Below, in pieces: positions 2,975 through 43,660 of a DNA stretch of 64,000 nt (within the stretch, counting starts at the first letter, position 1; each line of letters starts with the position of its first letter). This stretch comes from Tricholoma matsutake. Its lineage: Eukaryota; Basidiomycota; Agaricomycetes; Agaricales; Tricholomataceae. A program made the translations under genes and the position numbers. Where the stretch lies: positions 124,001-188,000 of the forward strand of contig AP026547.1 in the NCBI GenBank assembly GCA_026075535.2, in the 5' to 3' direction. Under the pieces are notes generated by a model, which saw only the letters and a program-made list of their open reading frames with translations, was not told the DNA's origin and searched no databases.

Positions 2975-3220
2975 ATTGCTGGGAGGTCTTTACACTCCCC
3001 CCCCAATCCGAGCAGACTCCGCTCAGACACTCGGACTGTCCGAGGACTTTGCTTGGACTTTGCTTGGACTTCTTTGGCTGAAAGTCCTGCCAAACTAGAT
3101 GTCCAGTCTGAGCTGAGTCCTCAGACTGTCCGAGTGTCCGAGCAGAGTCCGAGTGGACCAGCACTTGTACAGTCCTAGGACTGTCTGAGTTGCTTATATA
3201 ATTGACTGAAAAATCAGTGG

Positions 3221-3297
3221 CTACCACAGGGATTGAACCCTCATAGTCACATGATAAAGTACATTTAAGGCAACAATATAACCATTAGACTAAAGTA
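3221..3297 (-). other. tRNA-like Pol III module, type B (T1-a left end)
   Basis: On the minus strand the A box reads TAGTCTAATGGTTATA and the B box GGGTTCAATCCC. The module points toward the nearer element end at 2983. Cloverleaf pairing is poor, so this is tRNA-derived rather than a working tRNA gene. Confidence 0.7.
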
Positions 3298-3511
3298 TCA
3301 TTACAGATAGATAGTTTTATCTCTCTATGTACCACCCTGGCTGTGATGACAAATCAACACAGCCATGTCACCAACAATGATGCCAGCTCATCGTCGATCA
3401 TCACCAACCACCACCACCACCACCACTTGATGATGATGACTCCCTCCCACGTCCCTCTGCCACCACTGCCCCCTGAACAACCCACAGTGATGGGCCCCAT
3501 GCCAGCACACG

Positions 3512-3935
3512 ATGAAATGGGCCCAAACAACAATAGAGTTGTTTGGGCCCCAGGTGAGTTTTTTCTTTTTTCTTTTCTCATGTTTTCTTTAAGCTAACAC
3601 ATTTTTTCATTAATTATAGGTTATATCTATACTGTAGGAGCAAAATGACCCCAAAACCACCAAACAAGGAACAATGACGAGACCACAACCCAGCACCCAC
3701 CCCCACCAGTGCGAGCAACTGCTCGCATGGGGGAGAGCGGCTGCTAATGATGATGATGACAACAGGGAACAACAATGACCAGGAACAACAATGACAAGGA
3801 ACAACAACACCACCCACCCCAGCCCTACAAGCCACTGCTCGTAGGGTGGACGATGGGTGGAATGACGATGATTAGGTCCTAGGTAAGCTTTTTTTTCTTC
3901 ATTTTTCGATGCTAACTAACTTTTTATAGGTACAA
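3512..3935 (+). repeat. Palindrome-plus-intron units (two)
   Basis: An inverted pair GGGCCC...GTTTGGGCCCCAG is followed by an intron-like segment at 3554-3619 (GTGAGT start, GCTAAC branch-like site, ATTATAG end, 66 nt). A second lies at 3883-3929 (GTAAGC start, GCTAACTAAC, TTTATAG end, 47 nt). The order donor, pyrimidine-rich stretch, CTAAC, AG is that of short fungal introns. The flanking exons encode no conserved protein that I recognise. Confidence 0.65.
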
Positions 3936-4215
3936 ACTACTACTGGCAACGACAATGATGGGGGGACACCACCACCACCACTGCTGTGAGCCCCTGCTTG
4001 CAGGGTGGAAGGTGAGGGTGAAGAGACAAGGGGGAAGGGAGACAAGGGGGAAGGGAGATGAGAGGGAAGGGAGACAATGACCCCACCCCATGCCTACAAG
4101 CATCTGCTCGTGGGGTGGTTTGGGGGGGAGAAGAATCGGGCCAGGAGAGCGAGACGGCCAGGGGATGACCCGGGGAGAGATGAATGCCACTACGAGCAAC
4201 AGTTGCTCATGGTGG
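3700..4215 (+). repeat. Cluster of five GAGCA/TGCTC palindromes
   Basis: Near-palindromes of the form GAGCANNTGCTC occur at about 3712, 3832, 3988, 4098 and 4193, most with CACCC before or GGGTGGA after. Between them are purine-rich GACAAGGGGGAAGGGA-type runs. The motif recurs in every T1 cargo and in T2. Confidence 0.75.
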
Positions 4216-4249
4216 GTGTTTTTAATTTATTTTTATTATTGATAGTTAC

Positions 4250-4345
4250 GGCCCCCTCCCCTCAAGCCTGCAAGGGGAGGGCTTAGTATTATACATACTT
4301 ACCCATATTAATTACCCCTTGCACAGATGCGAGGGGGTCAATTTA
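4250..4345 (+). repeat. CCCTC hairpin block of T1-a
   Basis: Two inverted repeats, CCCCTCAAGCCTGCAAGGGG and CCCCTTGCACAGATGCGAGGGGG, separated by AT-rich sequence. They correspond to the regularly spaced hairpins of the other T1 copies; this copy retains fewer. Confidence 0.65.
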
Positions 4346-4417
4346 ATAATCTATTCATGATATATATAAAAATTAGATTTCAGTAATAAATAGATATAAT
4401 GTATGTGACTTTGAATG

Positions 4418-4505
4418 ACTGCTTGGCTTAAGTGGTAGAGTGTGCATGTTTGGTCATCATGTGATCGTTAGTCCAGAAGTCTGTTGGTTCAATTCCTGCT
4501 GTGCA
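4418..4505 (+). other. tRNA-like Pol III module, type A (T1-a right arm)
   Basis: A box TGGCTTAAGTGGTAGAG, an internal TCATCATGTGATC that echoes the TGTCATGTGATT of other type A modules, and B box TTGGTTCAATTCC. TTTT follows within 15 nt. It points to the right end of T1-a. Confidence 0.7.
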
Positions 4506-4819
4506 CACATCATTTTGTGAGACTTATAAGAATTTCTGTAAGTCTGGAACTTGGACAATACTCAGCCTCCTACCCATGCCCTCTGGAAGAGTCCGTGATC
4601 ACTCACTGTGATTTTCATACTCACAATTTGATTGTCTGAAACCTTCTTTTTTGTAACTCTTCCAGAGGGCCTGGCACCAAACATTTGTCAATAGACATTG
4701 CCACCGTTATGAGTGACTGGTCAATGTCCATTTTAGTCGTATATTTGATCACCCGCTTGTATAATTACACAATCAATTTTGAATAAAATCATTTGCCACA
4801 TTCGGTTATACACCCTCGG

Positions 4820-5221
4820 TGTTAGGAAACCACCCCATTACCTAATAAACTTTCATTTTTATTTTATTATGTCGAATTACGCTACATGACGCCAAATGAT
4901 GCTACATTTTGATAGTGTGAGAATTTTATTTTGCACGCATCAAAATGTACGTGCATGTATGAGTGCGTCGGTAACAACAATGTACAATATATGTAACATA
5001 GTATATAAACCCTAAATATATGCCTAGGGGACCCCAGTTGTGTTCTCTTAGGTATTCCACCTACGTTTTCAGTGTGAAAGGCCTATCTCAACAAACTCAC
5101 CTATTAATAACCCCTTGCATCAAAACCATCAATTCCCCCATCATGAGCGCGGATCCCGCCCCCTTCTTGTAGAGAGAACCCGCATGGTCTTAGCTAGCAG
5201 ATAGTGGGTGTCGCCCTAACA
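4820..5221 (+). repeat. Solo LTR, family L1, with 5-bp target duplication
   Basis: A 402-bp LTR from TGTTAGGAAACC to CCCTAACA, flanked by perfect CTCGG duplications (4815-4819 and 5222-5226). The body carries a TATATAAACCC promoter-like box. It lies just inside the left arm of the MULE-like element, so it inserted later. Confidence 0.93.
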
Positions 5222-5420
5222 CTCGGCTCAGATTAGATCAAATAGCTACATCGATGGCCAGTACCAGCTCCTCCTACGTCACACCAATCCTATTGTATTT
5301 CCATCAAAATAATCTGCTCCTATCAGACTTTCTGTTGACTCTGCTATCCGATGTTCAGTTGTCAACCCTCCTTTGTCAGCTGCTCTGGGCTTGTAATGAC
5401 AGCCTGGTAATATAACCCCT

Positions 5421-5801
5421 CTATGGCCTATCCAAAAGGTAAGTTGATTGTTTTCCTAACACAATGGGATTGGCATTCAAACTCACTTGAAAATTTTTGG
5501 CAGTTGCAGAATCCCCTGAAATCATAAGTGCTTTGATCCCTACACACTTCAATGATAGCACATTCTGTGACCCAAGGAGGTTGAGTGGTGTTACAATAAT
5601 CTGGACACTGCCGGGTGGTCGGAAAAGTATAGGTATCCAAAAGACAAGTGTTTTGCCCATCCCCATTCCTGCTATGGACACAACATCATTCTTCTGTTGA
5701 AGGATTGATTGGACTATCTGTGACTGCCATAGACATGGATGGACACCAAAAACTTCATTAGTTCGTTTTTGTATTTGTTCAAATGAGGGAATGTCATTCA
5801 T
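5421..5801 (-). pseudogene. RecQ-like DNA helicase, N-terminal fragment
   Basis: A 126-codon minus-strand frame matching the start of a RecQ/DEAD-box helicase core: a glutamine motif region (HPCLWQSQIVQSILQQ, about residues 21-36), Walker A GMGMGKTLVFW (about 45-55) and motif Ia TPLNLLGSQN (about 71-80). The DEAH box and the second RecA-like lobe are absent, so no helicase activity is expected. It sits inside the long-TIR element, which suggests capture. RecQ-like fragments are common in basidiomycete repeat regions. The assignment to a superfamily 2 helicase is firm; RecQ rather than another DEAD group is likely. Confidence 0.8.
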
Positions 5802-6300
5802 AAAAGACGCGATGTGACACGTTGAGTGTGGGCTGTAGTATAACCGAAAATGATTTTATTCAAAATTGATTGTGTAATTATACAAGCGGGTGATCAAATA
5901 TACGACTAAAATGGACATTGACCAGTCACTCATAATGGTGGCGATGTCTATTGATAAATGTTTGGTGCCAGGCCCTCTGGAAGAGTTACAAAAAAGAAGG
6001 TTTCAGACAATCAAATTGTGAGAATGAAAACTACGGTGAGTGATCATGGGCTCTTCCAGAGGGCATGGGTAGGAGGCTGGACAATACTTTGAAGGTGTAA
6101 GTAAATGCACAATTGATGTTGTCCAAGCAAAGTCCGAGCAAAGTCCAAGTGCAGTCCTCAGACTTTACTCAGACAGTCCTAGGACAGTCCGAGTGTCTGA
6201 GCAGAGTCCGAGTGAAGTCTGAGGACAGTCTGAGTGTCTGAGTGTGTCTGAGCAGAGTCTGCTTGGACTGGGGGGGCGAGTGTAAAGTACTGATCGCTGG

Positions 6301-12033: not shown

Positions 12034-13018
12034 CTGAATGATGGTCATCCTTCCTGACGCCTCCTAAATATGAATATGTTATCACATTGGCTGGCCTGAA
12101 CTCTCCCTCTGCCTTATTTCCTGCCACTCACACATTCTACAGTTTTGCATACAGATTCTCCAGCATTCCCCCAGCATCTTTCTAAACAACCTCATCTCAA
12201 TAGCACACCACCACAGACCCCACCTGCTGAGATACAAGTAGAAATGGTCAAAGCCAAATGTAGGTGGTGTACACCACCTTCAAATGTGGATGACTCTGTG
12301 AACAGTTCTCATTAGCTTCACCCCTGCACCTCACCCTCAAAGAGAGGAAGCTAACATGGCCACTGCACTTACAGGCTTTGAGCACTACATCAAATACTTG
12401 GCTACTGGGAAATTGGACAGATATCTCAACTTGATCTGACATGAAGACAAAGTTGAAGTCCCAGGGGTGCATCTGCCCCGTGACCTGATTCTTCTCATTC
12501 ATGACCTTGGCAAGCATCTAGACCAGGAGTGGATCAGAGACTTGTTTATCCATGATACAGTGTTTGTGTGGCTGGGATTATTGTGAAGATAATTAATTTT
12601 AATCTTGCTCTTTCTAGCCATCTATTTGGCATCTCTGGCTCAGGTAAAACACACCTTTCACTTGATGGTCTTTGCCAGAACTGGGGCCTTTATATCATGT
12701 GCAGGACCAAGTGAGGTCCCACATCTGGCTCTGACAACTTCAATGTAGCAATGGAAATGTTGCCATCTATGAGTACTTGGCACCAAGGCGTAAGCTCTGC
12801 CAGTACTTTACAGTCCCCCACCTGTCCTAGTGGACTCCAACCAGACTGACTGGAGTCCAAGTGGAGTCCAAGTGGAGTCCAAGTGGAGTCCAAGTGGAGT
12901 CCAACTGGAGTCCAAGGGGAGTCCATTTCAACCAAATGATAAGTCAATTAGATACTGAGCTCAAAGGACTTCAGACTTGGTGAATTTCATAAAGTACCAA
13001 CACAATAAATTTGTAGAG

Positions 13019-13094
13019 TGCAGGAATTGAACTCAAGACCTCACAATAAGCAATCACATGACAAATCAAACAAGTGTGCTCAACCACAGGAGAC
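13019..13094 (-). other. tRNA-like Pol III module, type A (T1-b left end)
   Basis: On the minus strand: A box TGTGGTTGAGCACACTTG, internal TGTCATGTGATTG, and B box TTGAGTTCAATTCC. It points toward the left end at 12801. Confidence 0.72.
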
Positions 13095-13184
13095 TTATTA
13101 GAGATTAATATAAGGTTTATTTATGACTCAACTTTTCATATTCTTCGAGGCATTTTTCAAGCAATTAAGATCAAAATTTTTTAA

Positions 13185-13395
13185 TTAACTACATCCCTTG
13201 TGTAGGACATGAGGGAGTGGGTATAATATAATAATAAACAAAAAAAAACCCTCTTGCATCTTGTGAGAGGGGGGGGATTACTACTATGTAGATAAAAAAC
13301 TAAACCCCTTGCATTCAGTGTGAGGGGGGGACAGAGATAAATTTAAAATAATAAATACCCCCCCCATGCAAAATGCGGGGGAGGGGGGGTTGGGT
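13185..13395 (+). repeat. Four CCCTC/GAGGG hairpins at ~55-bp spacing (T1-b)
   Basis: Inverted repeats start near 13195, 13252, 13306 and 13365 (for example CCCTCTTGCATCTTGTGAGAGG and CCCCTTGCATTCAGTGTGAGGG), separated by AT-rich linkers. The same four occur in reverse order in T1-e. Confidence 0.78.
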
Positions 13396-13469
13396 GATGT
13401 GGTCTCAGGTTGGTGTCATTGCCCACCCCTCCTCGCATGTGTCTGTTGCCGTAGCAAGCTGCACCTGTC

Positions 13470-13590
13470 ACCCACCCTATGAGCAGTTGCTCATAGGTGT
13501 GGGGATGGGTGTTGGTAGGCATTGTTGTTGTTGTTGTTGTTGACTGCACATGCTCACCATCCACCCTTCAAGCAGGGGCTCACAGGCATG
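13470..13590 (+). repeat. GAGC palindromes of T1-b
   Basis: Two copies, ATGAGCAGTTGCTCATAGG near 13480 and CAAGCAGGGGCTCACAGG near 13570, each preceded by CCACCC. Confidence 0.75.
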
Positions 13591-13629
13591 GGGTGGATGT
13601 GTTGGGTTGTCTTGTGTCCAGCTGTTGTT

Positions 13630-13935
13630 ACCAGTAGAGTAGAACCTATAAAACAAAAGAAACAAGTTATTTAGTTTATAAAAACAAAAAGCAAATGAAA
13701 AAAACTTATGTAGGGCCCAAACGATGCAGATCGCATTGTTTGGGCCTGGGTCGGCTCATTTGTGGGTGGCAGCATCATTACCAGTAGATTATAACCTACA
13801 AAACTAAAGAAACTGGTTAGTTAGTTTATAAAAACAAAAAGCAAACAAAAAAAAAACTTATGAAGGGCCCAAACAATGCGAGCTGCATTGTTGGGGCCCA
13901 TGTTCCATCCAGTCAGCTCGCTTGTGGGTGGTTGT
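13630..13935 (-). repeat. Two palindrome-plus-intron units of T1-b (minus strand)
   Basis: Read on the minus strand, each GTTTGGGCCCTACATAAG or similar palindrome arm is followed by a T-rich stretch, CTAACTAA and an AG before GGTTATAATCTACTGGTAA. The donor dinucleotide has become AT (ATAAGT) in both units, so splicing would be lost. Confidence 0.6.
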
Positions 13936-14136
13936 GATGGTGGATTGGGCATGGGAGCAGTGGTGGTGGTGGTGGTAGAGCAGAGAGGAGGGAGGGAGGC
14001 AGCATGGACGGTGGTGGTGGTGGTGGTGGTGGTGGTGGTGGTGAGTGATGAGCTGGCACATTTGATGACATGGCTATATGCTTTGTCATACACAGCCACA
14101 CCATGGTACCTAAAGCAAGTAGATGATACCTCATGC

Positions 14137-14213
14137 AAGGTACTGTTGTCTAACAGTTATGTTGTGTACTACAATTATATAAGCAAACCACAGGGAACTG
14201 GGTTCGATCCCTT
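14137..14213 (+). other. tRNA-like Pol III module, type B (T1-b right end)
   Basis: A box region TTGTCTAACAGTTATG and a consensus B box GGGTTCGATCCC, followed at once by TTTT, a Pol III stop. It points to the right end at 14450. Confidence 0.75.
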
Positions 14214-15054
14214 TTCTTACACACTTTTTCAGTGGAATCCTGCTGGTCTCCAACTGGACTCCAACTGAACTCCACTGGACCAGTCCGAGTGGAATCCAGT
14301 GTTTGAGTGGATTCCACTCGGAGTCTGGTCAGACTGGACTGGGACTGGACTGGCAACTTTGTAGGCAGTTGGCTGGTGACCAGTCCCAGTGGACTCCAGT
14401 CAGACTCCAGTCGGAGTCCACCAGGAAAGGTGGGGGAGGGTAAAGACCTCAGCTCTGCAGACATTTCCAAGAAGGTTGAAGCTGCTCACTGCACCTTTGC
14501 GATGTTGTTGTGTGTGCACATCTTTATCCTGAAGCAACTTGTGCAACACCTTTCTGTTGGCACAGATGTCATGGTGGCTTGACAGCAATGATTTCTTGCT
14601 GAAGTTGTGCCTCCCCATTTGAAGTGCGAGGATGATGACCTCTTCATCACATTGATGCAGTACCTTTGGTAAGGTGACACTAAGACCATGCTTCGCATTA
14701 CCCACTCCACAATGCATGACCTCATGAGATCTGTTTCCTGTGTGAAGTGATACACCTCTATTTGTTGTGATCGATGAGGCACAGGTAGCTGCTGACCATC
14801 TGGAGTTCTTTCACTCCAGCTCAGGGACTGATCTGTGCCCCATTCTCAATATTTTACACTCCCCCACAGATTCCTATCGGACTCCTAGGAGTCCGAGTTT
14901 TCTGATAGGAGTCCAATCAGAATGTATCTTGATAACCATGTACTTTTGTTTCCAACATATTCCTAGTAAATTCTGAGTAAATTCCTATGCAATTCCAACA
15001 TGGAGTCACATTTTGGAAGACTTAACTTGGCAAGTGCTTACAAAATAAATGGGT

Positions 15055-15135
15055 AGAGCAGGGATTGAACCATGGACCTTGGAATATAAATCACATGACA
15101 ACCAAACAAGTGCCCAACCAGTTGAGCCACAGGAG
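15055..15135 (-). other. tRNA-like Pol III module, type A (T1-c left end)
   Basis: On the minus strand: A box TGTGGCTCAACTGGTTGGGC, TTGTCATGTGATT, and B box ATGGTTCAATCCC. It points left, toward 14847. Confidence 0.75.
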
Positions 15136-15194
15136 AATTAATAAATTAATAATATAATGTCCATTTAAAGCACTTAGGGATAGTTCACTATTGA

Positions 15195-15600
15195 AAAAAA
15201 AAAAACTCCCCCCCACGCAAATGCATGGGGGGACAATCAATTATACTATTTAATTATACAATTTAAAACTAAACCCCCCCCCCCGCAAAATGTGTGGGAG
15301 GGCATGGTGGTGTGTCGCATCATGTCACTGCTGTCTTGTCGTTGCCCCTTCCCCTTGCCTCTTGTCTCCCCTCCCTCTTGTCTCCATTGTGCTGTCCCCC
15401 CATTGTCCTGCGGTTTCCCCCCCTCCCCATTGTCTCCCCTCCCCATCATCATTCCATGCACCATCCACCCCACGAGCAGTTGCTCATGAGGCTGGAGGTG
15501 CATCGTGCATTGTCTGTCATCCTTGGGGTTGTTGTTGTTGTCCTTGTCATCCCCGTGCTCTCACACCCCATATTCACCCTGCGAGCAGTGGCTCACAGCA
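15195..15600 (+). repeat. Hairpins and GAGC palindromes of T1-c
   Basis: Two short CCCCACGCAAATGCATGGGG-type hairpins (15208-15300) are followed by pyrimidine-rich CTTGTCTCCCCTCC runs and by GAGC palindromes near 15473 (CACGAGCAGTTGCTCATGAG) and 15580 (GCGAGCAGTGGCTCACAG). Confidence 0.7.
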
Positions 15601-15699
15601 ATGGTGGGGGGTGCTGGTTGTTGTTGGTGTCATGGGGGTGGTCTTGGGTGGTGTGCCATCATGATGTGGCAGCATTGGCATGGTCTCACGTCCATTCCT

Positions 15700-15985
15700 T
15701 GTTATGAGAACCTGGCAAACAAAAGAAATACATTAGTTAGTTTATGAAAAGAAACGAAAGAAGAAAAAAAGTTACTGTGGGCCCAAACAATGCAATCACA
15801 TCATTTGGGCCTGGATGATGTGGCACTGTTGGGTGCACATTGTTAGGTGTCATCAAGTGTCGTTACCAGTAGATGAGAACCTGAAAAAAAAGAAATACAA
15901 TTAGTCAAATTACAAAAATAAGAAATAAAACAAAAAAACTTACTATTGGCCCAAATGACAATTCACATCATTTGGGCCACATTGT
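15700..15985 (-). repeat. Two palindrome-plus-intron units of T1-c (minus strand)
   Basis: On the minus strand GTTTGGGCCCACA is followed by a GTAACT donor, T-rich sequence, AACTAACTAAT and a TTTGCCAG acceptor (about 15709-15775). A second, weaker unit lies at about 15870-15950. Confidence 0.6.
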
Positions 15986-16092
15986 GTGTCATGTGGCTTT
16001 TTTGCGGAGGCAGTGGTCATTGTGGGAGTGTCGGGTGATGTGGTTGGGGTTGTGGGAAGAGGGGGGAAGGGGGGGAGGCTGTGGTTGCCGTT

Positions 16093-16494
16093 TGTTAGGA
16101 AACAGCCCCATTACCTAATAAATTTTCATTTTCATTTTATTATGTCGAAATATGCTACATGACACCAAATAATGCTACACTTTGATAGCATGAGAATTTT
16201 ATTTCGCACGCATCATTAGGTATGCACCTGTATGCACACATCGGTAACAACAATGTACAATATATGTAATGTAGTATATAAACCCTAAATATACACCTAG
16301 GGGACCCCATTTGTGTTCTCTTAGGTATTACACCTACACTTGTGGTGTGAATGGCCTATCTCAACAAACTCATCTATAAATAACCCCTCTCATCAAAACC
16401 ATCAATTCCCCCATCACATGCACAGATCCCACCCCCTTCTTGTAGAGAGAACCCGCATAGTCTTAGCTAGCAGATAGTGGGTGTTGTCCTAACA
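16093..16494 (+). repeat. Solo LTR, family L1, inside T1-c
   Basis: A 402-bp LTR, TGTTAGGAAACAGCCCC to CCTAACA, with flanking CCGTT and CTGTT (one mismatch). It is the same length as the copy at 4820-5221. Confidence 0.92.
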
Positions 16495-16612
16495 CTGTTG
16501 ATGGTGGTGGTTGGGAGTGATGAGCTGGCAAGGTGTGGTGATGTGGCTATGTGCTTTGTCATCACACCCACAGGAACAGTATGTAGTGCAGTAAGAGTAC
16601 TTACCTACAATA

Positions 16613-16692
16613 GATGCTTAGTGTAGTGGTCTTCTTGTCACTGTATTCTTATGTAATCATCTCAGAGGTCCCGGGTTCAATTCCACTGTGCA
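16613..16692 (+). other. tRNA-like Pol III module, type B (T1-c right end)
   Basis: A box TTAGTGTAGTGGTC, which is close to the TAGTRTAGTGGTTA of tRNA-Asp/Glu/His; B box GGGTTCAATTCC; TTTTT at about 16700-16705. It points right. Confidence 0.75.
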
Positions 16693-17547
16693 GGTTTACT
16701 TTTTCTACTATTAATTACTAAGCAAGGCTGCTATTATTCCTATCGGAATCCTATGTTGTCCAATGTCTCTGCATAACCTCAGAATATTCCTATGTATTCC
16801 TATGGTCAACAATTCCTAGGAAATTCCAATGTTCCAATTGGATTCTGATCAGACTGCATCAGACTGGACTTGGACTGAACCTTCCATTTCATGTCAATTT
16901 GGCTGGTAAAAATGACATCAGAATATGGTCAGATTCCGATTGGAGTCTGATTGGAATCATTGGAATCATTGGATTCTGATAGGAATATGTGGGGCAGTGT
17001 AAAGACCTCCCCATTCTTCATGAAATGTATAGCTTCTTTCTGAAGTCTGGGCTCTTTGCTGGGATTATTCTTTTGGGAACTGGTCTGTTGATGAAAATGG
17101 TGAAAGATGCAGTGGGTTCTTTTTCTGCAAAACAGGTGGACAAGAGGGTGCAGCCCCAAGTCTTCACTAATATTGGGCATTTCACAAGGGACAGTTCTTC
17201 TCAAGTGGTGTATATTCACTGGTACCTCACTCTCTCTGACAATGACATCTCAGATCAGTGATTGTTGGAGCACATGGTGTACTGGTTTTCTGGCCAGTAT
17301 GTCTATTAATTGATGCTACAAGATTCCTTCTGATTGTTGATATAGTAACTGCCTAACAGTGAGCCTTATTGAGCTTTTTCTTTACTCCCACACCATTGTA
17401 TCCTCACCTTGTTTGCTGAACACTTGACTGGATTCAAAATTGCTGATGTAATTGAACTGGAGGATGGTGAACCCCCTGTTTCGCCTGGTTTGTCCTCGAA
17501 GATTGAACTTTATTGACCACTTACTGAATTGGACCAACTTTTCAATG

Positions 17548-26709: not shown

Positions 26710-27200
26710 CAGTACTTTACAGTCCCCCACCTGTCCTAGTGGACTCTGACCGGACTGACTGGAGTCCGACTGGAGTCCAGTTGAACTGCATTAAGTCAAG
26801 TAGAGTTCAGTCCTCCACTGGAGTCCAACCAGAGTCCAACTGGAGTCCAACTGGATGAACATGTTCAATGCTACTTAAGCAATTATCCTGTTATGACTCC
26901 AGTCCACTCGGACTCCAGTCAGGTTGGACTGGGACTCAGAAATTATCACTCAAGCTTGCGTCTGAAAATATAAAATACCTGTATTTCCAAGACTTGAACC
27001 CTCAACCTCTGCTCTCCAGCTTAAATAAGCAGATTTCAAAGTGCTCTAACCACCTGAGCCATGTGCCTGACATATTTTTACCATATTAGGGTCATGAGAT
27101 ACAATTCACAAAGTTTATATTTGCTCTACATAGTCCAATCAGACTCCAACTGGACTCCAAGTGGAATTCAACTGGACTTCAAGTGGAATTCAATCACAAG
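26710..27200 (+). mobile_element. T1-d: left end of a T1 element
   Basis: Starts CAGTACTTTACAGTCCCCCA like T1-b, followed by GGAGTCCGACTGG repeats, a tRNA-like module and further AGTCCAACTGGACTCC repeats to about 27190. No right TIR or duplication is visible, and the hairpin/intron cargo is absent. Either a deleted copy or one rearranged with T1-e, which begins 70 bp further on after a (CATCAC)n run. Confidence 0.65.
26978..27067 (-). other. tRNA-like Pol III module (T1-d)
   Basis: Minus strand: A box TGGCTCAGGTGGTTAGAGC, a good match to consensus; B box GAGGGTTCAAGTC. The middle is too long for a simple anticodon arm, as if it held an intron. It points left, toward 26710. Confidence 0.75.
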
Positions 27201-27540
27201 ACCATAATATTACTATCAACAACTACCTACATGTCATCACCATCACCATCACCATCACTATCAACATTATTGAGGTCTTTACACTCCCCCACCTTTCCTG
27301 GTGGACTCTGACTGGAGTCCGACCGGAGTCCACTGGGACTGGTCACCAGCCAACTGCCTGCAAAGTTGCCAGTCCAGTCCCAGTCCAGTCCAACTGGACT
27401 CCAAGTGGAATCCACTCAAACACTGGATTCCACTTGGACTGGTCCAGTGGAGTCTGGTGGAGTCCAGTTGGAGTCCAGTTGGATTCCAGTCAGAGTCCAG
27501 TCAGAGTCCAGTCGGATTCTGCTGAAAAAGTGTGTAAGAA

Positions 27541-27615
27541 AAGGGATCTAACCCAGTTCCCTGTGGTTCACTTATATAATCATAGTACACAACATAACCA
27601 TTAGACAACAGTACC
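27541..27615 (-). other. tRNA-like Pol III module, type B (T1-e left end)
   Basis: Minus strand: A box TTGTCTAATGGTTATG; B box GGGTTAGATCCC, followed by TTTTC. It points left, to 27272. Confidence 0.72.
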
Positions 27616-27859
27616 TTGTGTAAGTAATCATCTACTTGCTTTAGGTACCATGGTGCGGCTGTGTATGACAAAGCATATAGCCGCATCATCAAATGTGCCA
27701 GCTCATCACTCACCACCACCACCACCACCAAACCATCGATGCCACCTCCCTCCCTCCGCTCTGCTCTACCACCACCACCACTGCATGGACACCCACTGCC
27801 ACTGCTCCCATGCCCAATCTGCCATCACCACCACCCACAAACAAGCCTACTGGATGGAA

Positions 27860-28085
27860 CGCGGGCCCAAACGACGTGATCTGCATTGTTTGGGCCCTAC
27901 ATAAGTTTTTTTCAATTGCTTTTTGTTTTTATCAACTAAATAACTTGTTTCTTTAGTTTTCTAGGTTATAATCTACTGGTAACAATGCTGCCACCCGCAA
28001 ACAAGCCGACCCAGGCCCAAACGATGCAAATCACATTGTTTGGGCCTTACATAAATTTTTTTCATTTCCTTTTTGTTTTTATAAC
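27860..28085 (+). repeat. Palindrome-plus-intron units of T1-e
   Basis: Two units: a GGGCCCAAACGACG...GTTTGGGCCC palindrome, then a T-rich intron-like stretch with AACTAAATAACT and TTTTCTAG before GTTATAATCTACTGGTAA. Donors read ATAAGT or ATAAAT rather than GTAAGT, so both have probably lost splicing. Confidence 0.6.
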
Positions 28086-28109
28086 ACTGACCCCCAAAAT
28101 GGACCACAC

Positions 28110-28250
28110 ACCCACCCCACACCTATGAGCCTCTGCTCGTAGGGTGGATTGTGAGTGTGTGCAGTCAACAACAATGACCCCAACAACAACAACACCTACC
28201 AATGCCCCCACAGCACCCATCCCCACACCTACGAGCAACTGCTCATAGGG
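28110..28250 (+). repeat. GAGC palindromes of T1-e
   Basis: Two copies near 28126 (ATGAGCCTCTGCTCGTAGGG) and 28230 (ACGAGCAACTGCTCATAGGG), both followed by GTGG. Confidence 0.75.
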
Positions 28251-28339
28251 TGGGTGATGGGTGCAGCTTGCTATGGTGACAGATGCATGTGAGGAGGGGT
28301 GGGCAACAACGCCCACCCGATACTGCATTGCCCAACCCC

Positions 28340-28585
28340 CCCTCCCCTGCATTTTGCATGGGGAGGGGTCTTTATTATTTTTAATTTATCTCTGTCCCCC
28401 CCTCACACTGAATGCGAGGGGTATATATATTGTAGTACTTATGAATCCCCCCTCATGCTGAATGCAAGGGGTTTAGTTTTTTATGTACATAGTAGTAATC
28501 CCCCCCCTCTCGCAAGATGCAAGAGGGGTTTTTTTTTGTTTATTATTATATTATACCCACTCCCTCGTGTCCTACATGAGGGATG
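28340..28585 (+). repeat. Four CCCTC/GAGGG hairpins of T1-e
   Basis: Hairpins near 28345, 28398, 28448 and 28505 plus CCCTCGTGTCCTACATGAGGG at 28562, each followed by a T-rich linker. They are the reverse complement of the series in T1-b. Confidence 0.78.
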
Positions 28586-28686
28586 TGGTTAATTAAAAAA
28601 ATTTTGATCTTAATTGCTTGAAAAATGCCTGCTCGAAGAATATGAAAAGTTGAGTCATAAATAAACCTTATATTAATTTCTAATAA

Positions 28687-28775
28687 GTCTCCTGTGGCTC
28701 AAGTGGTTGAGCACACTTGTCTGGTTTGTCATGTGATTGCTTATTGTGAGGTCTTGAGTTCAATTCCTGCACTCT
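28687..28775 (+). other. tRNA-like Pol III module, type A (T1-e right end)
   Basis: A box TGTGGCTCAAGTGGTTGAGC, TTTGTCATGTGATTG, and B box TTGAGTTCAATTCC, then TTTATTTT. It points right. Confidence 0.75.
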
Positions 28776-29062
28776 ACAAATTTATTTTGTGGGTACTTTA
28801 TGAAATTCACCAAGTCCAAAGTCCTTTGAGCTCAGTATGTAATTGAGTTATCATTTGGTTGAAATGGACTCCACTCAGACTCCACTCAGACTCCACTTGG
28901 ACTCCACTTGGACTCCAGTGGGGGATTGAACTCTACATGACTTAGTGTAGTTCAATTGGCCTGTGCTCATATCTCACACCATTGCACAACTTACAGAATT
29001 TTTCTGTGAGCTTATATAGTCCCAGCCACTATTGGCTTGTTTCCCGGTCCCTGCTAGGCCAT

Positions 29063-31592: not shown

Positions 31593-31794
31593 CTGAACTT
31601 TACACTCCCCCACATAGTCCTGGAGGAATCCGGGTAGTCCTACCGGGAAGACCAGGAATCCAGTAGGACTAACCAGGATTCCTGGTATGTTACCAAACAT
31701 CCAACCATAATGGAAAGTCAATTTGATATCTTACGAGTTTAAGTGCCTCAACTTCAGAAATTTCACAATGTGCCCACAAAACGGATTTGTGCAA

Positions 31795-31876
31795 AGCAGG
31801 AATTGAACTCAAAACCTCATGATGAGGAATCACATGACAAACCAGACAAGTGTGCTCAACCAGTTGAGCCACAGGA
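31795..31876 (-). other. tRNA-like Pol III module, type A (T1-f left end)
   Basis: Minus strand: TGTGGCTCAACTGGTTGAGC, TTTGTCATGTGATT, and B box TGAGTTCAATTCC. It points left. Confidence 0.75.
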
Positions 31877-31999
31877 GAATTATTTGTTATCCATATAAAG
31901 TTTATTTATGACTCAAACTCAAACTCAAGCATGTAATCTCTCTCAAAGTCACTATTAAGATCAAATAATTTAATCAACTACAATTAACTACATAAAAAA

Positions 32000-32215
32000 G
32001 CCCTCCCATGCACCTTGTGCAAGGGAGAGCCCTAAAAATATTTACAGATAAAACTAAATCCCCTCGCGTCGAACACAAGGGGAGGGCAACAATTATGAAT
32101 AAATAGAGAAAATCCCCTCGCTGTTGTAAAATGTGGGCGAGGGGAGGGCATTAATATGAATGAAAGAAAATGAAAAAAACCCTCCCCATGCAAAATGCAG
32201 GGTAGGGGGTGGCCT
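32000..32215 (+). repeat. Four CCCTC/GAGGG hairpins of T1-f
   Basis: Hairpins start near 32005, 32058, 32113 and 32180 (for example CCCCTCGCGTCGAACACAAGGG), with spacing of 53-67 bp and AT-rich linkers. Confidence 0.78.
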
Positions 32216-32334
32216 GGTGGTGTCTCGTTGTGGTGTGGGTGCATGGGTCCCCCTCCCCATCCTCGTCCCCCTCCCCATCCTCATCCCCATCCCTGTCCCT
32301 GTCCCCATCTCCCCGTCGTCCCCATCCCAATGGT

Positions 32335-32615
32335 TCCCCGTTTCTGCCCCATGAGCAGTTGCTCGCAGTGGTGGATTGGGGTGCTGCTGTGGTGGTGGCC
32401 ATCATCGCCATTCCACCCGCAATCCACCCCACAAGCAGTGGCTCATGGGGCTGGAGGCGGGTGGTGTGTTGTTGGCCCCGTCATTGTTGTCCATCATGGT
32501 TGGTGGCCATGCTTCACGTTCTGGGGGTTCTGGTGCTGGTAGGCAGTGGCATCATCATTGTCATTGACTGCACACTCACAATGCACCCAACGAGCAGAGG
32601 CTTGCAGGCATGGGG
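32335..32615 (+). repeat. GAGC palindromes of T1-f
   Basis: Copies near 32350 (ATGAGCAGTTGCTCGCAG), 32430 (CAAGCAGTGGCTCATGGG) and 32600 (ACGAGCAGAGGCTTGCAGG), the last two preceded by CCACCC or CACCCAA. A (CCCCATCCTCGTCCC)n run precedes them. Confidence 0.75.
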
Positions 32616-32644
32616 TGGGTGTGTTGGGTTGTCTCATGTCTGGC

Positions 32645-33075
32645 CGTCATTACCAGTAGAGTAGAACTTATAAAACAAAAGAAACAACTTAGTTAGTTTA
32701 TAAAAACAAAAAGCAAACAAAAAAAAACTTACGTAGGGCCCAAGCGATGCAATCTGTGTCATTTGGGCCCGCATTCCATGCAGTCAGCTCATTTGCGGGT
32801 GGTGGCGTCATTACCAGTAGATTGTAACCTAGAAAACTAAAGAAACAGATTAGTTAAATTATCAAAACAAAAAGCAAACAAAAAAAAAACTTATGTAGGG
32901 CCCATGCAGTAGGCTCGTTTGCAGGTGGTGGAGTTGTTACCAGTAGATTATAACCTAGAAAACTAAAGAAACAGATTAGTTAGTTTATAAAAACAAAAAG
33001 CAAGTGAAACAAAAACTTATATAGGGCCCAAACGACACAGCAGGTTGCATTGTTTGGGCCCGCATTCTGTCCAGT
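32645..33075 (-). repeat. Three palindrome-plus-intron units of T1-f (minus strand)
   Basis: Minus-strand units end at about 32735, 32900 and 33030. Each is a GGGCCC palindrome, a T-rich stretch, AACTAACTAA and TTTTCTAG or TTTATAG before GTTATAATCTACTGGTAA. The donor nearest 32730 is ACGTAAGT-like and could still work; the others read ATAAGT. Confidence 0.6.
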
Positions 33076-33276
33076 CAGCTCGTTTGAAGGTGGTGGTGAT
33101 GGTGGAGTGGGCGTGGGAGTGGTGGTGGTGGTACAATGGAGAGGAGGGAGGCGGTGGCGTTGTTGAGAGTGGTGGTGATGGTTGATGAGCTGGCAGTGTT
33201 GATGATGCAGCTGTGTGCTTTGTCATGCACAGCTGCCCCAATGGTACCTAGAGCAGTTAGTGGACAAACTTTGTAA

Positions 33277-33348
33277 GTCTATGTGGTGTAGTGGTTATAT
33301 TGGCTGTGCTGAAATGTTGTTGTCCTAATGCCTAGGGTTCAATTCTGT
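33277..33348 (+). other. tRNA-like Pol III module, type B (T1-f right end)
   Basis: A box TGGTGTAGTGGTTATA, close to tRNA-Glu-like consensus; B box GGGTTCAATTC; TTTATTTTATT follows. It points right. Confidence 0.78.
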
Positions 33349-33827
33349 CTTGTGTCATTTATTTTATTACTTAGTAGTAAGGACTCCTACTGGATTCCTC
33401 ATAGTCCAAGTCCTGGGGAATTGCTGGAATGGTACCAGGAAGAGCCCAATTCACCAGGATTATACCAAGAATCCACCAGGAATCCTACTGGAAGAGAAAC
33501 TGCCAGGAATAAACCATTTGGTGGACAATGGCTGAAGCAGGGACTACCAGGAATACGTGGGGCAGTGTAAAGAGCTCGGAAAATTGGGAAGCAGACCAAA
33601 GGTTGATGAGTGATGTTATCTTTCCTTTTTGTTGTGATCCATCAGAGACGTCCAAGGAAGATCGATGATGAACAATATTACCTATTTTTTCCTCTGTGGT
33701 GTATACTCTAAGTACAGGACAGTGACGACATCTACTGGATGCAAGAAGATGAATCCTGTTTTGAAACAAAGAATTCCAGTAACATAATAACTCTAGTCAG
33801 AAGGACACTTCCAAAAGTCCTTCCCCA

Positions 33828-36800: not shown

Positions 36801-37762
36801 TCACAGCCCAAGAATTAGCCAACCTGTTCGTCCTCCACGTCTTCTCCAAGCATGGTGTCCTGTCGCACATCACTTGTGACCGGGGATCCGAGTTCGTCTC
36901 CCATTTTTTCTGCTCCCTTGGAAAAGTGCTCGACATGCGGATCCACTTCCCTTCCGGTTATCACCTGCAAGGTGATGGTCAGACAGAACAACTTAATCAG
37001 ACCTTGGAGCAGTACCTCTGGATTTTCTGCAACTATCAGCAGGACAACTGGTCTCACCTCTTACCCTTGGGTGAATTTTCCTACAACAATGCTCCCTCTG
37101 CCTCTACAGGCATATCTCCTTTCTTTGCCAACAAGGGCTACCAGCCGAACATCCCCAAATGCGACTTAGCCTCACAGCGTGCCCATGAGTTCATTGTTGA
37201 CTTAGATGACCTTCATCAGGAGCTTCAGAGACAGCTTGTGGCTGCTCAAGAGCATTATCAAGGCCCAGCGGACAAACATTGGGCACCTGCACCCAACTTC
37301 AACATTGGTGACTCTGCCTACGTCACTGTGGAAAATATCCGCACCACTTGTCCCTCCAAGAAACTTTCCGAAAAGAACCATGGTCCCTTTGAAATCATCG
37401 CCTGCCTGGGTACTCACTCAGTCACTCTGCGGCTTCTGGACCACATGCGGGCCATCCACCCTGTTTTCCCTGTCTCCCAACTTGAAAAACACTTCCTGAA
37501 CACAATTCCAAATTGAGCACAATCTCCACCTCCTCCGATCACCATCGACGATGAGCTCAAGTATGAGATTGCTGAAGTCCTTGACTCCAAGGTTGACAAT
37601 CGACATCGCTGCAAGATTCTCTACCTCGTCTGATGGGAAGGTTACCAGGGAACCAATGAAGAAACCTCCTGGCTACCTGTTACAGAACTTGACCATGCAC
37701 AAGAACTCCTTGCAGACTTTCACACCCGCTACCTGCAGAAACCCAGTCCATTACCCACTTAA
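33828..37762 (+). pseudogene. Gypsy B copy 2 gag tail and pol
   Basis: The gag tail has a damaged zinc knuckle (LHLYCGEEGHIAGNC; first Cys lost) near 34000. The protease near 34250 reads TLINFGSSPCFLDSS where the family has a catalytic Asp, so it is dead. RT spans 34840-35700: the 493-codon frame 35195-36676 has FTKIDLQH just upstream, LVVPFGLTNAPAAFQ and VIVYLNDKSQH; against copy 1 seven residues including the catalytic Asp pair are deleted in frame. RNase H (TDHKNLEYF), an integrase zinc region (CKYCTTCKQ near 36600), integrase core (36695-37516, SMDFIKQLPNSDGH, TCDRGSEFVSHFF) and chromodomain (YEIAEVLDSKVDN) follow. TGA stops lie before SISMDF and inside the chromodomain, both shared with copy 1. 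Confidence 0.92.
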
Positions 37763-38773
37763 AGTCTATTCATGTTAGTCAATCACACAGTTGGAACTCA
37801 GAAACAAAGTTTATTGCAAAAGGATTTTTTTTTTTTGGATCCAACTAGATCCCTACACTACCACCTCTGCTTCTCCCTCTCCATCTTCATCACCCTCTCC
37901 CCCAACGTTGCCCTCTTCTCCACCCTTGTCCTTCTCTCCACCCTCACCCTCATCTCCACTCTCACTCTCCTTCTTGTCATCCGCCCACATTTTCTCCAGA
38001 TATCTCTGGAAGGCTGCCCAGTCATCTCCAGACTTGCAGATCCCACATCTTTCCCGCTGGGACTCTTGCACCCCCCGCTCCACTTCTTCATCACCCTCAT
38101 CACTCTCCTCCCTGGTGCTTTTGTCCTCCACCCACTCTGGGTCCAATGGATCCTGGATCTGCCCTATCAATTCCCACACCGCAGTTGCCACCTCAGCGAA
38201 TCCCTTCCTCATCATCTTCATCATCTGCTGCATCATCTCCGCATTTTCCCCGCTAATCCCCATTGACCCTGTCATTCCCGCCGTTTTTGCTGCAGGGGCC
38301 TCCTGCTCCTCCCACACTACCTCCTCACACTTGTGTTTGATGTGCATGGAGTTATCACACACATGTCCCTTTGTGCCCATCTTGAAGCAAGCAATTTCTG
38401 GATACTTGCATCTAGGCCATTTGTCAGTAAAAGAATATGGAAAAAGAAGATAAAGACACACCTTTTGCAGAGGTCTTTACACTGCCTCATATGTTCCGCA
38501 TGGATCCATGTGGAATTGCATGGACTCCGCACGGATCTGCACAGACTCCGTATAGATTTACATCCCATCTAATGAACAGTTTTAGTTATGCAACAGGGGC
38601 AGACAGTCCACACAGATCCGCATGGACTAGCTTGGATTCCACACTTTTTACTTGGATTCCACGGATTTTGGCCATCCACATCCAAGATCAGAGACAGCAA
38701 GTATGAGCAAGGACCAGCAAGGACAGTCCGCATGCATCCGAGCAGACCATTTGAGCTTAGCAAAATAATGTCA

Positions 38774-38848
38774 TGAATGGTGTTTGAACTTGGAGCCTCA
38801 TGGTTAACTAATAAGTACAGATGCACATTACCGTTACACTACGCAGCC
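38774..38848 (-). other. tRNA-like Pol III module, type B (T1-g left end)
   Basis: Minus strand: A box TGCGTAGTGTAACGGTAATG, very tRNA-like; B box AAGTTCAAACACC, a weaker match. It points left. Confidence 0.68.
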
Positions 38849-39084
38849 ATTATTGTTTGTAGCCATTGATGCAACTACATACGACTGTTTGGCTTTGTAT
38901 GACAAAGCACACAGCCATGTCATCAACATTGCCAGCTCATCCCTCACCACCACCACCATCGATGACGACCATGCCGCCACCTCACTCCCTCCCTCCTTCC
39001 CTCTCTACCACCACCATCACCTCCACCCACTCCCAGCCCCATTCCATGGCCACAAAGAGCTGCCAACAAGCCGACCAGAAGCAA

Positions 39085-39495
39085 CGTGGGCCCAAACGAT
39101 GCAATTGCATCATTTGGGCCATAGGTAATTTTTTTTATTTGTTTCTTCTTTTTATCAACTAACTAATTGTTGTCTTTGTTTTTTAGGTTCTAATCTACAG
39201 GTAACAATGGACGACAATGCGGGCCCAAATGACGCAATTGCATTGTTTGGGCAGTAGGTAATTTTTATTTATTTGTTTCTTCTTTTTATCAATTAACTAG
39301 TTGTTTTCTTTGTTTTTTAGGTTCTAATCTACAGGTAACAACTCCATGGCCACGAAGAGCTGCAAACAAGCCAACCAGAAGCAATGCAGGCCCAAACGAT
39401 GCAATTGCATCGTTTGGGCTGTAGGTAATTTTTATTTATTCATTTCTTCTTTTTCTCAACTAACTAATTGTTTTCTTTGTTTTTTAGGTTCTAAT
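39085..39495 (+). repeat. Tandem array of three palindrome-plus-intron units (T1-g)
   Basis: Introns at 39125-39186, 39258-39320 and 39425-39487 (62, 63, 63 nt) each start GTAATTTTT, contain AACTAACTA or ATTAACTA before the acceptor and end TTTTTTAG, followed by the same GTTCTAATCTACAGGTAA. Each is preceded by a near-perfect palindrome around CGATGCAATTGCATCG inside GGCCCAAA...TTTGGGC. The 'exons' between them are 71 and 104 nt. This is the best-preserved array in the window. Confidence 0.82.
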
Positions 39496-39699
39496 CTACA
39501 GGTAATGACGGATGACAATGCAGGACGATGCAAACCCCCCCAAAACAGACAAAAACAAGCACCAGGGCCCCACCACGACCACCCATGGTGATGGATGACA
39601 CACCACCCTCCCCCAACCCCATGACACTGATGAAACTGACGCCAACCACAGAATGACACACCACCCACCATCCACCCCACAAGGACACACCACCCACCT

Positions 39700-39900
39700 C
39701 CAGCCTCGCAAGCCACTGCTTGTGGGGTGGATGGTGGGTGGAATGATGATGAGGGGATGGGAGACGAGAGGAAAGGGAGACGAAGGGGGAGGGGGAGGGA
39801 GACGACGAGGGAGGGGGAGGGAGATGACGAGGGAGATGGGACAGGAGATGACAGCACACCACCCCCAGCCTCACGAGCAACTGCTTGTGGGGTGGATCGC
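39700..39900 (+). repeat. GAGC palindromes and G-rich runs of T1-g
   Basis: Copies near 39705 (GCAAGCCACTGCTTGTGGGG) and 39872 (ACGAGCAACTGCTTGTGGGG), both followed by TGGAT. Between them are GGGAGACGACGAGGGAG runs. Confidence 0.75.
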
Positions 39901-41702
39901 GGGTGGAACAACGACAAGGAAGGGGGGTGCATACAGAGCAACAGGGAACGGTGAGGGGGGACAAGAGGGGGCCACAAGGGAGGGCCGATGATGAATGCAC
40001 CTGCCCCTGCCATCTCGCATGCTAGCGAGATGGTGGCTTATTTATTTTATTCTATAGTCTACTGCCCCCCTCTTTGGCAGGGGGGCAAGTTTTTTTGTAT
40101 TTAATACTACCAATAAAATGTCCCCCGTCGTGGGGCATCCTTGTTTTTTTTTGCCATCAACCCATGCCTCAATTCTTCATTTGGGTCACCACATGGTTGG
40201 AATCTGTGTGGACTTATGTGGACTTATGTGGACTCCACATGGACTTATGCAGACTTATGTGGACTCCACGTGGACTGGGGCGGAGTCTGCGGCAAAAGGG
40301 GTGTAATTTTTCATTTTGGTCACCAGATGGTTGGACTCCACATGGAGTCCGCACAGTCCGCATGGATCCGCGCAGAACATATGGGGCAGTGTAAATTACT
40401 GCTTTTGCAGGGCAATGCCACCTGCACCCACACCGGACCCTCCGACTCCTCTGACCCCACTTGCACCCTCGACTTGGTGACTTTCTTTTTCTTTGGGGAC
40501 TTGCTCCCCTCAGCCTCGTCCTCCAAACCCATGGCCACAGCTGCCTGCTTCTTTTCCACTTGTTGTGCGGCTGCTGCCTCTTTTTTCCATGCTTCTGCCT
40601 GGCGTGCCTCCTCCGCCTTTGCAGCCTCCTCTGCTGCCTTTTGCACCTCCTGTGCCTGGTGTTCCTCCTCCCTCACTGCTTCCTCCAGCTCCTTCATCTC
40701 CATTTCCATCTGCTCCTTCAGTGCCCGCTCCCTCTGTTCATGTTGGGCCCTCATCAGAGCCAATTTGATCTGCACAGAGACTGCTGGGGGGGACATAATT
40801 GATAGGTGATGGGGGTAGGAAAGAATGTGAAAAATTTTCAACCAACTTCCTTATTTGGACTCAAACACTCATGTGCCTCATAGGCTCGGCACTAAGGGGG
40901 AAATACTGTCAAGAACCATTCCTCGCCCAATCGGAACCCACATCCATCCAACCCTTTTCTGCACGTCAAACCTGACATTTGTCTACTCCTCCCACTTTTG
41001 TTCCTGCCCACCTTGCACTGCCCACACCAGGTCACCTTGTACAGCACCCACGGCTGCTGTCTCTTTTGCAAATTCAACTACGGATGCCTGTGCAGCTCCC
41101 ACGAGGTAATTTATCTACGCAGTCGAGACACTGCCGCAGTCTTTGTTTCCATTCTGCCTTTATTCCGGACAACCATATTTAAGCTTAGTTAGTTTTGCCT
41201 TGTATTCCTCAGTTCGTATATCCACATAGACTCAACTTTAAACCTGCCAATCTAAATCTCTTTCTACTCCTACCTCAGTTCTCTAAGAGTCTGAACTCCA
41301 TTTGACTCGACCTCTAGTCTCCCTCTGAAGTTCTAACCTCATCTGAACTTAACCCAAGTCCCTCTGTACTCCTTCCCACATTTATCCGCACTTCCCCGCT
41401 TCTACCTCCAAACCTTTGTCTTGAAATTAGGACACCAGACACTGAACTTTACACTGCCCCACATAGTCCTGGAGGAATCCTGGTAGTCCTACCAGGAAGA
41501 CCAGGAATCCTCCAGGAATCCAGTAGGACTCACCAGGACTCACCAGTCATCCAGTAGGACTCACCAGGACTCACCAGGAATCCAGTGAGACTCAGTACCC
41601 TAAAGTCATACCATAATGGAAAGTCAATTTGAGATATCTTACAAGTTTCAAGTGCTTCGGACTTCATGAATTTCACAAAGTACCTACAAAATAAACTTGT
41701 TC

Positions 41703-41788
41703 AGAGCAGGGATTGAACTCTAAAACTCATGATCAAGAATCACATGACAAACCAAACAAGTGCTTAACCGGTTGAGCCACAGGAGAAT
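41703..41788 (-). other. tRNA-like Pol III module, type A (T1-h left end)
   Basis: Minus strand: TGTGGCTCAACCGGTTAAGC, TTTGTCATGTGATT, and B box AGAGTTCAATCCC. It points left. Confidence 0.75.
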
Positions 41789-41884
41789 TTTTAGCTGCAA
41801 TATAAAAGTGTATTTATACCCTCAAACTCAAACTTAGCTATTTCTCTCTTGAAGCTCACAATTAAGATCAAATAAAATTTATTA

Positions 41885-42145
41885 ACTACATCCCTCACAT
41901 CCAACGCGAGGGATACACCATTAATTACATAATAAAAAAACCTCCCCCACACAAGGTGTGAGGGGGAGTCCTACAAATATATACATATAATACTAATCTC
42001 CCCTCACGTCGAATGCGAGGGGAGCACTACAATTATAAAGAAAAAGAAAGAAAAACCCCTCACCCACGTAAAACACGGGTGAGGGGGAAGGTATTACCAT
42101 AAATAAAAAATGAAAAAAACCACCCCACCCAAAATGCGGGGGCAG
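41885..42145 (+). repeat. Five CCCTC/GAGGG hairpins of T1-h at ~55-bp spacing
   Basis: Hairpins start near 41890, 41945, 42000, 42057 and 42120 (for example CCCCTCACGTCGAATGCGAGGG and CCTCCCCCACACAAGGTGTG), spaced 55, 55, 57 and 63 bp, with A-rich linkers. Confidence 0.8.
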
Positions 42146-43515: not shown

Positions 43516-43660
43516 GGGAGGCGGTGGAAGGGAGGTGGCATCATCAAGAGTGGTGATGATGGGTGGATGATGAGCTGGCAATGTTGATATGCAGCTGTGT
43601 GCTTTGTCATGCACAGCCGCCCCAATGGTACCTAGTGCAGTAAGTGGACATACCTCATAA

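Follow-up and report, generated by a model that had tools for sequence, protein, structure and literature searches.

Why do transposons of Tricholoma matsutake carry, just inside their ends, sequences that resemble the promoters of tRNA genes? The question is raised by a 64,000-nucleotide stretch of chromosome 10 (C10:124001-188000; "the window", in which all positions below are counted), part of an assembly of 161,040,721 bases in 13 contigs. An initial annotation of the window had proposed that elements of a family named T1, among them T1-c at 12801..14450 (+ strand), combine terminal inverted repeats (TIRs) with two tRNA-derived RNA polymerase III (Pol III) promoter modules, one inside each end and both directed outward. 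We found that in a large group of matsutake transposons an outward promoter like that of a tRNA gene lies close to one end or to both. Judged by their boxes, the ends of these TIR transposons bear putative Pol III type-2 promoter units from two kinds of tRNA gene. Across families the A and B boxes persist where the intervening linkers have diverged, and modules that differ in their linkers recur at the same position in the same orientation. Our overall reading, held tentatively and at somewhat less than even confidence, is that the modules are kept as promoter DNA, that is, as sites for Pol III and TFIIIC, likeliest as a pair of barriers inside the ends.

Paired promoter modules inside the ends of T1

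The non-coding element T1-c has tips of CAGTACTTTACAGTCCCCCAC... and, as reverse complement, GAGGTCTTTACCCTCCCCCAC..., and is flanked on both sides by the 8-bp sequence AGCTCTGC (12793..12800 and 14451..14458). Inside its left tip lie subterminal repeats of the GGAGTCCAA type (12820..12930), of ~11-12 bp, whose number differs between copies. Our T1 sample comprised the 40 copies that a genome search scored among 2975 initial candidates. Copy L055, in which several elements lie in one stretch, was excluded from the arm alignments, leaving 39 left arms, 29 of them from copies that also had a right tip. The 29 include L041 and L070, which lack the true left tip and were bounded on that side at an inner look-alike; L058 and L067 have identical flanks and are probably one insertion that was duplicated. 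Target-site duplications (TSDs) were exact over all 8 positions in 17/29 copies and matched at 7 or more positions in 21/29, compared with 15/5581 and 28/5581, respectively, for mispaired flanks. Exact 8-bp TSDs so far above the control are the pattern left by cut-and-paste insertion with an 8-bp duplication, and the duplications listed in the initial annotation are thereby borne out. No open reading frame (ORF) of at least 200 amino acids overlaps 12801-14450, a result for the named copy; a Pfam scan of ten window ORFs likewise yielded none overlapping this element. With TIRs and TSDs of fixed length, as in non-autonomous TIR transposons of the kind of miniature inverted-repeat transposable elements (MITEs), the element is a TIR DNA transposon, non-autonomous and non-coding as far as examined.

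Read outward, the T1 left-arm consensus contains TGGCTCAAGTGGTTGAGCAC and, 62 nt on, the B box of GAGTTCAATTCC; in the right-arm consensus, TGGTGTAATGGTTA is followed at a distance of 55 nt by that of GGGTTCGATTCCTTTT. We take these words to be good A and B boxes, and the left and right modules look like derivatives of different tRNA types. Across 18 arm types, the distance between the starts of the A and B boxes was 47-64 nt. We scored modules out of 17 against a general A/B consensus, using dinucleotide shuffles and the inward strand as controls. Outward modules scoring at least 16/17 were present in 33/39 T1 left arms, 18/29 T1 right arms, and 16/20 right tips and 7/20 left tips of other families. 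Shuffles reached this score in 6/780, 3/580, 3/400 and 2/400 cases for the same four sets (14/2160 in total), and the inward strand in 0/39, 5/29, 0/20 and 0/20, such that all 5 inward matches, in 108 arms overall, came from T1 right arms. Lowering the threshold to 15/17 gave outward modules in 36/39, 27/29, 18/20 and 8/20 arms, together with inward matches in 18/39, 13/29, 0/20 and 0/20 (31/108) and shuffle matches in 46/780, 45/580, 38/400 and 27/400 (156/2160); given these many control matches, good separation is achieved only at a cut of at least 16. Both outward modules occurred in one T1 copy in 15/29 cases at 16/17 or above and in 24/29 at 15/17 or above, so that T1 escapes the outcome that the initial annotation had named as fatal to its proposal, a lack of one module in most copies. 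Together with six elements of the window and the genome-wide signatures described below, these counts indicate that the outward pair is real. An additional B-box-like word, GAGTTCAATCCC, points into the element at ~100 bp from the tip in the consensus of T1 left arms, and the inward scores of at least 15 in these arms may reflect it.

Pol III had initially been suggested to drive short transcripts out of the element, and runs of T had been noted past the B box. Among modules scoring at least 15, a run of four T residues (T4) was present within 25 nt past the B box in 33/36 T1 left, 27/27 T1 right, 16/18 other right and 6/8 other left modules (82/89 overall), compared with 21%, 7%, 7% and 14% of random windows from the same arms. 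Because T4 stops lie only 0-19 nt beyond almost all B boxes, inside the element, predicted transcripts would end within it, at an estimated length of ~75-110 nt, and transcripts leaving the element are not supported. The modules thus have the parts of a Pol III type-2 unit: an A box, a B box, suitable spacing and a T4 stop. Left arms additionally have an ATAAATA-like motif ~38 nt upstream of the A box, exact in 5/10 types and with no more than one change in 8/10, in a position where a TATA-like element would fit.

The joint retention of both boxes and the T4 stop in outward orientation, and of the ATAAATA-like motif before the left A box, would be understandable if the short Pol III RNAs were themselves useful, for example as decoys or as regulators of silencing. 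We consider this distinctly unlikely, since the RNA between the boxes is unconserved across families and neither a common sequence nor a common fold can be seen. Of the T-stem, the outer three pairs were formed in 16/51 cases over 17 modules, compared with 11/12 in four host tRNA genes; with these pairs mostly lost, what persists is the promoter DNA and not the tRNA fold. Neither the window nor any of 10 copies was matched by the Rfam tRNA model at E<=10. ARAGORN, run on 60 loci, called two genes, one of which is a module in register (the right module of L052, called as tRNA-Tyr). By both programs, then, the modules lack the cloverleaf of a tRNA gene, and with Rfam silent and ARAGORN nearly so, the evidence for the modules lies in their boxes, spacing and stops and not in tRNA structure. 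All Rfam matches, two weak ones to tmRNA in L044 and L074 among them, fell below the family cut-offs and were disregarded.

Genome-wide, the left A-box pattern matched 1582 sites with 2 mismatches allowed (reversed control, 5), and the right A-box pattern matched 646 sites with 3 mismatches allowed (control, 5). Among the exact sites listed for C1 (58 left and 27 right), 20 pairs lay within 4 kb of each other, and 20/20 faced outward; 38 left and 7 right sites among the matches listed had no exact listed partner.

Short interspersed elements (SINEs) of tRNA origin, which move through RNA, have a single promoter on their 5' side. The matsutake elements share with them tRNA-derived A and B boxes in an internal position and high copy number, and the tRNA-Tyr called in L052 adds to the likeness, such that the elements could be SINE-like hybrids that move by RNA through their tRNA-derived modules. 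They differ in having two outward modules within TIR tips: a SINE begins at the Pol III start and has a 3' tail, whereas here TIR tips and 8-bp TSDs bound the element and the modules are internal. The fixed tips, the exact TSDs in more than half of the T1 copies and the outward modules with internal stops make such a hybrid extremely improbable, as do 15 of 20 left-module sites sampled for their lack of an exact listed right partner, which reach a transposon tip. Of the other five such sites, 2 stop inside the subterminal repeats and 3 are without a tip; the 15 comprise 14 with a T1 tip and 1 with a second-family tip. A SINE origin, or free-standing modules, was accordingly rejected as the main explanation.

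T1-c, the copy for which the pair was initially described, is a poor and decayed example. Its ends, its TSD and both B boxes are intact enough to be recognised, the left one (AGTTCAATTCC) at 13023..13033 (- strand) and the right one (GGTTCGATCCC) at 14201..14211 (+ strand), the latter followed immediately by a T4 run at 14212..14215 (+ strand). Its A boxes, however, are damaged: the left remnant (13076..13088, - strand) has a 9-nt gap relative to the consensus, which reduces the left module score to 14/17, and the right A box (14146..14159, + strand) is mutated, with the result that the scorer chose another word there. Ahead of the right module, the family alignment defines a conserved interior block at 14047..14098 (GATGAGCTGGCA ... 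TTTGTCAT hairpin region). In 8 arm types, here and in other families, a block of the form GATGAGCTGGCA ... GGCTGTGTGCTTTGTCATACACAGCC lies 61-66 nt upstream of the A box on the right. The T1 interior also contains imperfect palindromes GGGCCCAAACGATGC..GCATCGTTTGGGCCC, for example at 13714-13748 and 13866-13900, which recur in a 126-nt unit common to several window elements.

Other families and module exchange

Modules were recognisable at both ends in six window elements, of which T1-c (12801-14450) is one. A T1-a-like element at 2983-6292 (- strand) has its right module at A 3292(-) and B 3239-3229(-) and its left module at A 4424(+) and B 4486-4496(+); it is probably interrupted by an insertion that sets the left module apart from the left tip. 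A member of a divergent family at 14847-17009 (+ strand) has a left module at A 15129(-) and B 15071-15061(-) and a right module at A 16619(+) and B 16674-16684(+). The T1 copy at 27272-28959 (- strand) has lost its left tip and retains both modules (right A 27608(-) and B 27553-27543(-), with one base of the B box changed; left A 28695(+) and B 28757-28767(+)). Two elements belong to a second family, characterised by ATTCCTGG repeats: 31593-33577 (+ strand; left A 31871(-) and B 31809-31799(-), right A 33284(+) and B 33336-33346(+)) and 41442-44176 (+ strand; left A 41779(-) and B 41719-41709(-), right A 43668(+) and B 43719-43729(+)). The subterminal repeats of this family contain a B-box-like word, CTGGTTCAATCC.

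Single modules were found at two further places. A piece at 26710..27130 (+ strand, inner limit approximate) has a T1-type left tip with nearby repeats and a left module different from that of T1 (A 27061(-), B 27000-26990(-)); its right part was not found, leaving the left module only. An element of another tip family at 38470..40401 (- strand) has a right module only, with its B box at about 38790-38780(-); a module was looked for in its left arm and none was found.

Beyond the window, genome-wide searches returned 684 right tips of the second type and 573 left tips of further types, with 0 matches for the control in each case. We listed the first 100 of each and fetched 20 of each, one batch mixing tip types. 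The outward module layout was also present in these families with other tips. Three of the fetched loci (L113, L117 and L118) bear another right module. Comparison of L115 with L113 and L118 gave identities of.79 and.80 on the tip side and of.41 and.44 in the linker (shuffle control,.31 and.28); comparison of L115 with L103 gave.89 in the linker and.55 on the tip side. The linkers of L113 and L118 instead resemble that of L116 (.67 and.61), the tip side of which differs (.62). This alternative module matched 83 sites, of which 14 lay within 900 bases of the 100 listed tips, and 14/14 were outward. The piece at 26710-27130, with its T1-type tip and different left module, is a second case of exchange. 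Unlike modules therefore share one slot and one orientation in two backgrounds.

Conservation of the boxes and the role of the modules

We compared identity in 12-column windows across 7 right-arm types and 10 left-arm types, omitting F2b_L115 on the right, the module of which is the same as that of F2_L111. Identity was.79 for the A box,.79 for the B box and.40 for the linker on the right, and.77,.79 and.55, respectively, on the left, the box values being inflated because the types were chosen and recognised by their boxes. Divergence within T1 is independent of that choice; since the copies are related, its p values are rough. At non-CpG sites of T1 left arms, divergence was.013 in the A box (3/229),.010 in the B box (3/312),.027 in the linker (32/1204) and.027-.045 in the flanks. 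The left boxes thus changed more slowly than the linker (Fisher p.026) and the flanks (p.0006), and more slowly than the linker also when CpG sites were included (p.019). At non-CpG sites of T1 right arms, divergence was.017 in the A box (4/232),.024 in the B box (6/252) and.088 in the linker (66/751; boxes versus linker, p 3e-7). The expectation that boxes would be better conserved than their neighbours hence held in full on the left, and on the right for the linker but not for the rest of the arm. Variable sites in the arm consensus of T1 copies L039-L078 fall in many cases at CpG, as expected from methylation or a process like repeat-induced point mutation.

These differences bear on the possibility that the modules are functionless, a tRNA-like sequence captured long ago in which conservation of the boxes reflects descent, recent spread or gene conversion. 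T1 copies are indeed much alike, with means of 60-column blocks mostly.82-.97. Passive ancestry does not readily account for left boxes that change more slowly than linker and flanks, and right boxes more slowly than linker, when non-CpG sites are compared within the same copies, nor for the persistence of boxes across families in which linkers have strongly diverged, nor for the occupation of the same slot by modules with unlike linkers. We judge it unlikely, though it is the alternative that we take most seriously.

Under the reading of the modules as Pol III/TFIIIC sites, selection would act on the capacity to bind TFIIIC and assemble Pol III, and not on a tRNA-shaped RNA. Most economically, the modules would bind TFIIIC and assemble Pol III close to the element ends; their most likely role would be that of a pair of nucleosome-poor barriers just inside those ends, which may keep the ends accessible and limit the spread of silencing between the element and its flanks. 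The initial annotation had likewise considered that Pol III might insulate the element, which is possible. The barrier role is modelled on tRNA genes and B-box repeats of fission yeast. There, B boxes are reported to contribute to the boundary activity of IR elements (PMC4502379), and the barrier formed by a tRNA gene is reported to require TFIIIC and Pol III (PMC2040200). With B boxes near their borders, the matsutake elements resemble the IR elements and centromeric tRNA-gene barriers of fission yeast, where B boxes or tRNA genes at domain borders bind TFIIIC or Pol III (PMC4502379; PMC2040200); they differ in that the fission yeast sequences are host loci and not mobile elements.

Several observations weigh against a selected barrier function; those on the right boxes and the remaining right arm, on left arms without a module and on module-less derivatives also favour passive ancestry. 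At non-CpG sites, the T1 right boxes were not slower than the remaining right arm combined (p.44), the parts of which diverged by.010 (after the B box),.012 (tip side),.022 (interior block),.032 (repeats) and.035 (before the A box). With all sites included, the right boxes (.071 and.086) did not differ from the linker (.095; p.12). The interior block ahead of the right module is better conserved than the Pol III boxes, and in the ranking of windows by conservation the A and B boxes stood 26th and 27th of 216 in right arms, and 6th and 5th of 236 in left arms. Five left arms of one family (L121, L122, L124, L125 and L127), which resemble the element at 38470-40401, have no module, and the proportion of fetched other-type left tips that score at least 16 is correspondingly small. 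Module-less derivatives consisting of little beyond the two tips, L101 (10-160, 151 bp) and L105 (547-625, 79 bp), have exact 8-bp TSDs (GAAGTTCA and GAAGGATC, respectively). No transposase was linked to the tips at the 8 loci examined of 316 domain matches. Finally, barrier activity in fission yeast is reported to be independent of the orientation of the tRNA gene (PMC2040200). A barrier that is indifferent to orientation would not by itself account for the strict outward direction, which may stem from common descent or from the avoidance of transcription into the element.

The same module-less derivatives bear on a more direct role, in which the modules would aid transposition through synapsis, timing or co-option by the transposase, with the tips kept open during movement. 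The position of the modules, just inside the variable subterminal repeats and at both ends of many T1 copies, would suit such a role. We nevertheless regard it as highly unlikely, given the exact TSDs of L101 and L105, unless their modules were deleted after insertion, and given the lack of a linked transposase at the loci examined.

Affiliation and implications

An 8-bp TSD is described for hAT and Zisupton DNA transposons (PMC12730594), and affiliation of the matsutake element with either is possible. As to a transposase link, 5 of 151 matches to PF05699 (hAT) were examined and had no T1-like tip within 1.1 kb downstream, and 3 of 165 matches to PF18758 (KDZ/Zisupton) were examined and had none within 2 kb downstream. 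Plavaka elements, which are described with TSDs of 2-3 bp and termini of TGT or CATCA (PMC12730594), were rejected as a source, as the TSD here is 8 bp and the termini are CAGTAC/GAGGTC.

The elements are like MITEs in their TIRs, 8-bp TSD, high copy number and, in the named copy, lack of a long ORF; they differ in reaching up to 2.7 kb and in having outward Pol III units inside their ends. We know of no MITE described with such units. Among the titles and abstract openings returned by searches of open-licence PMC papers, no DNA transposon was described with paired outward Pol III modules, in agreement with the initial view that DNA transposons are not known for this design. The nearest published hybrid that we met is MER6, a Tc1/Mariner-type MITE that carries a piece of V-SINE and is thus likewise a DNA transposon with SINE-derived sequence (PMC6887750). 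It differs in that its SINE likeness is without the tRNA-related head, its TSD is TA, and its description as consulted mentions no Pol III pair (PMC6887750).

Two other kinds of repeat were observed alongside these elements. ORFs at window 34976-37516 encode reverse transcriptase, RNase H, integrase zinc-binding, integrase core and Tf2-1-like SH3 domains, a set by which we take this to be a gypsy-type retroelement; a diverged inverted copy lies at ~17.8-23.0 kb. Among 30 tRNA loci fetched from the genome (L009-L038), 16 were identical in sequence, 7 of these when taken from the opposite strand, and others were close variants. They may represent one tRNA gene that was amplified as part of a repeat, and the flank of the L013 variant has a motif that we presume to be the end of a copia-type element.

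Taken as a whole, the data leave it somewhat less likely than not, and a shade less likely than the barrier reading itself, that these are transposons with their own pair of Pol III units, selected as TFIIIC/Pol III sites and with modules swapped between them, which bound themselves and shape chromatin at many hundreds of sites. If this is true, a cut-and-paste transposon recruited the promoter machinery of tRNA genes at its ends, and two kinds of mobile DNA that are usually kept apart would be joined. Potential TFIIIC/Pol III sites, numbering in the hundreds to thousands, would then have been spread through a genome reported to be 71.6% repeats (PMC10211490). For annotation, such modules are liable to be counted as SINEs or small RNAs. 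For the biology of these elements, whether a transposon defends or moderates itself by means of chromatin boundaries becomes a directly testable question.

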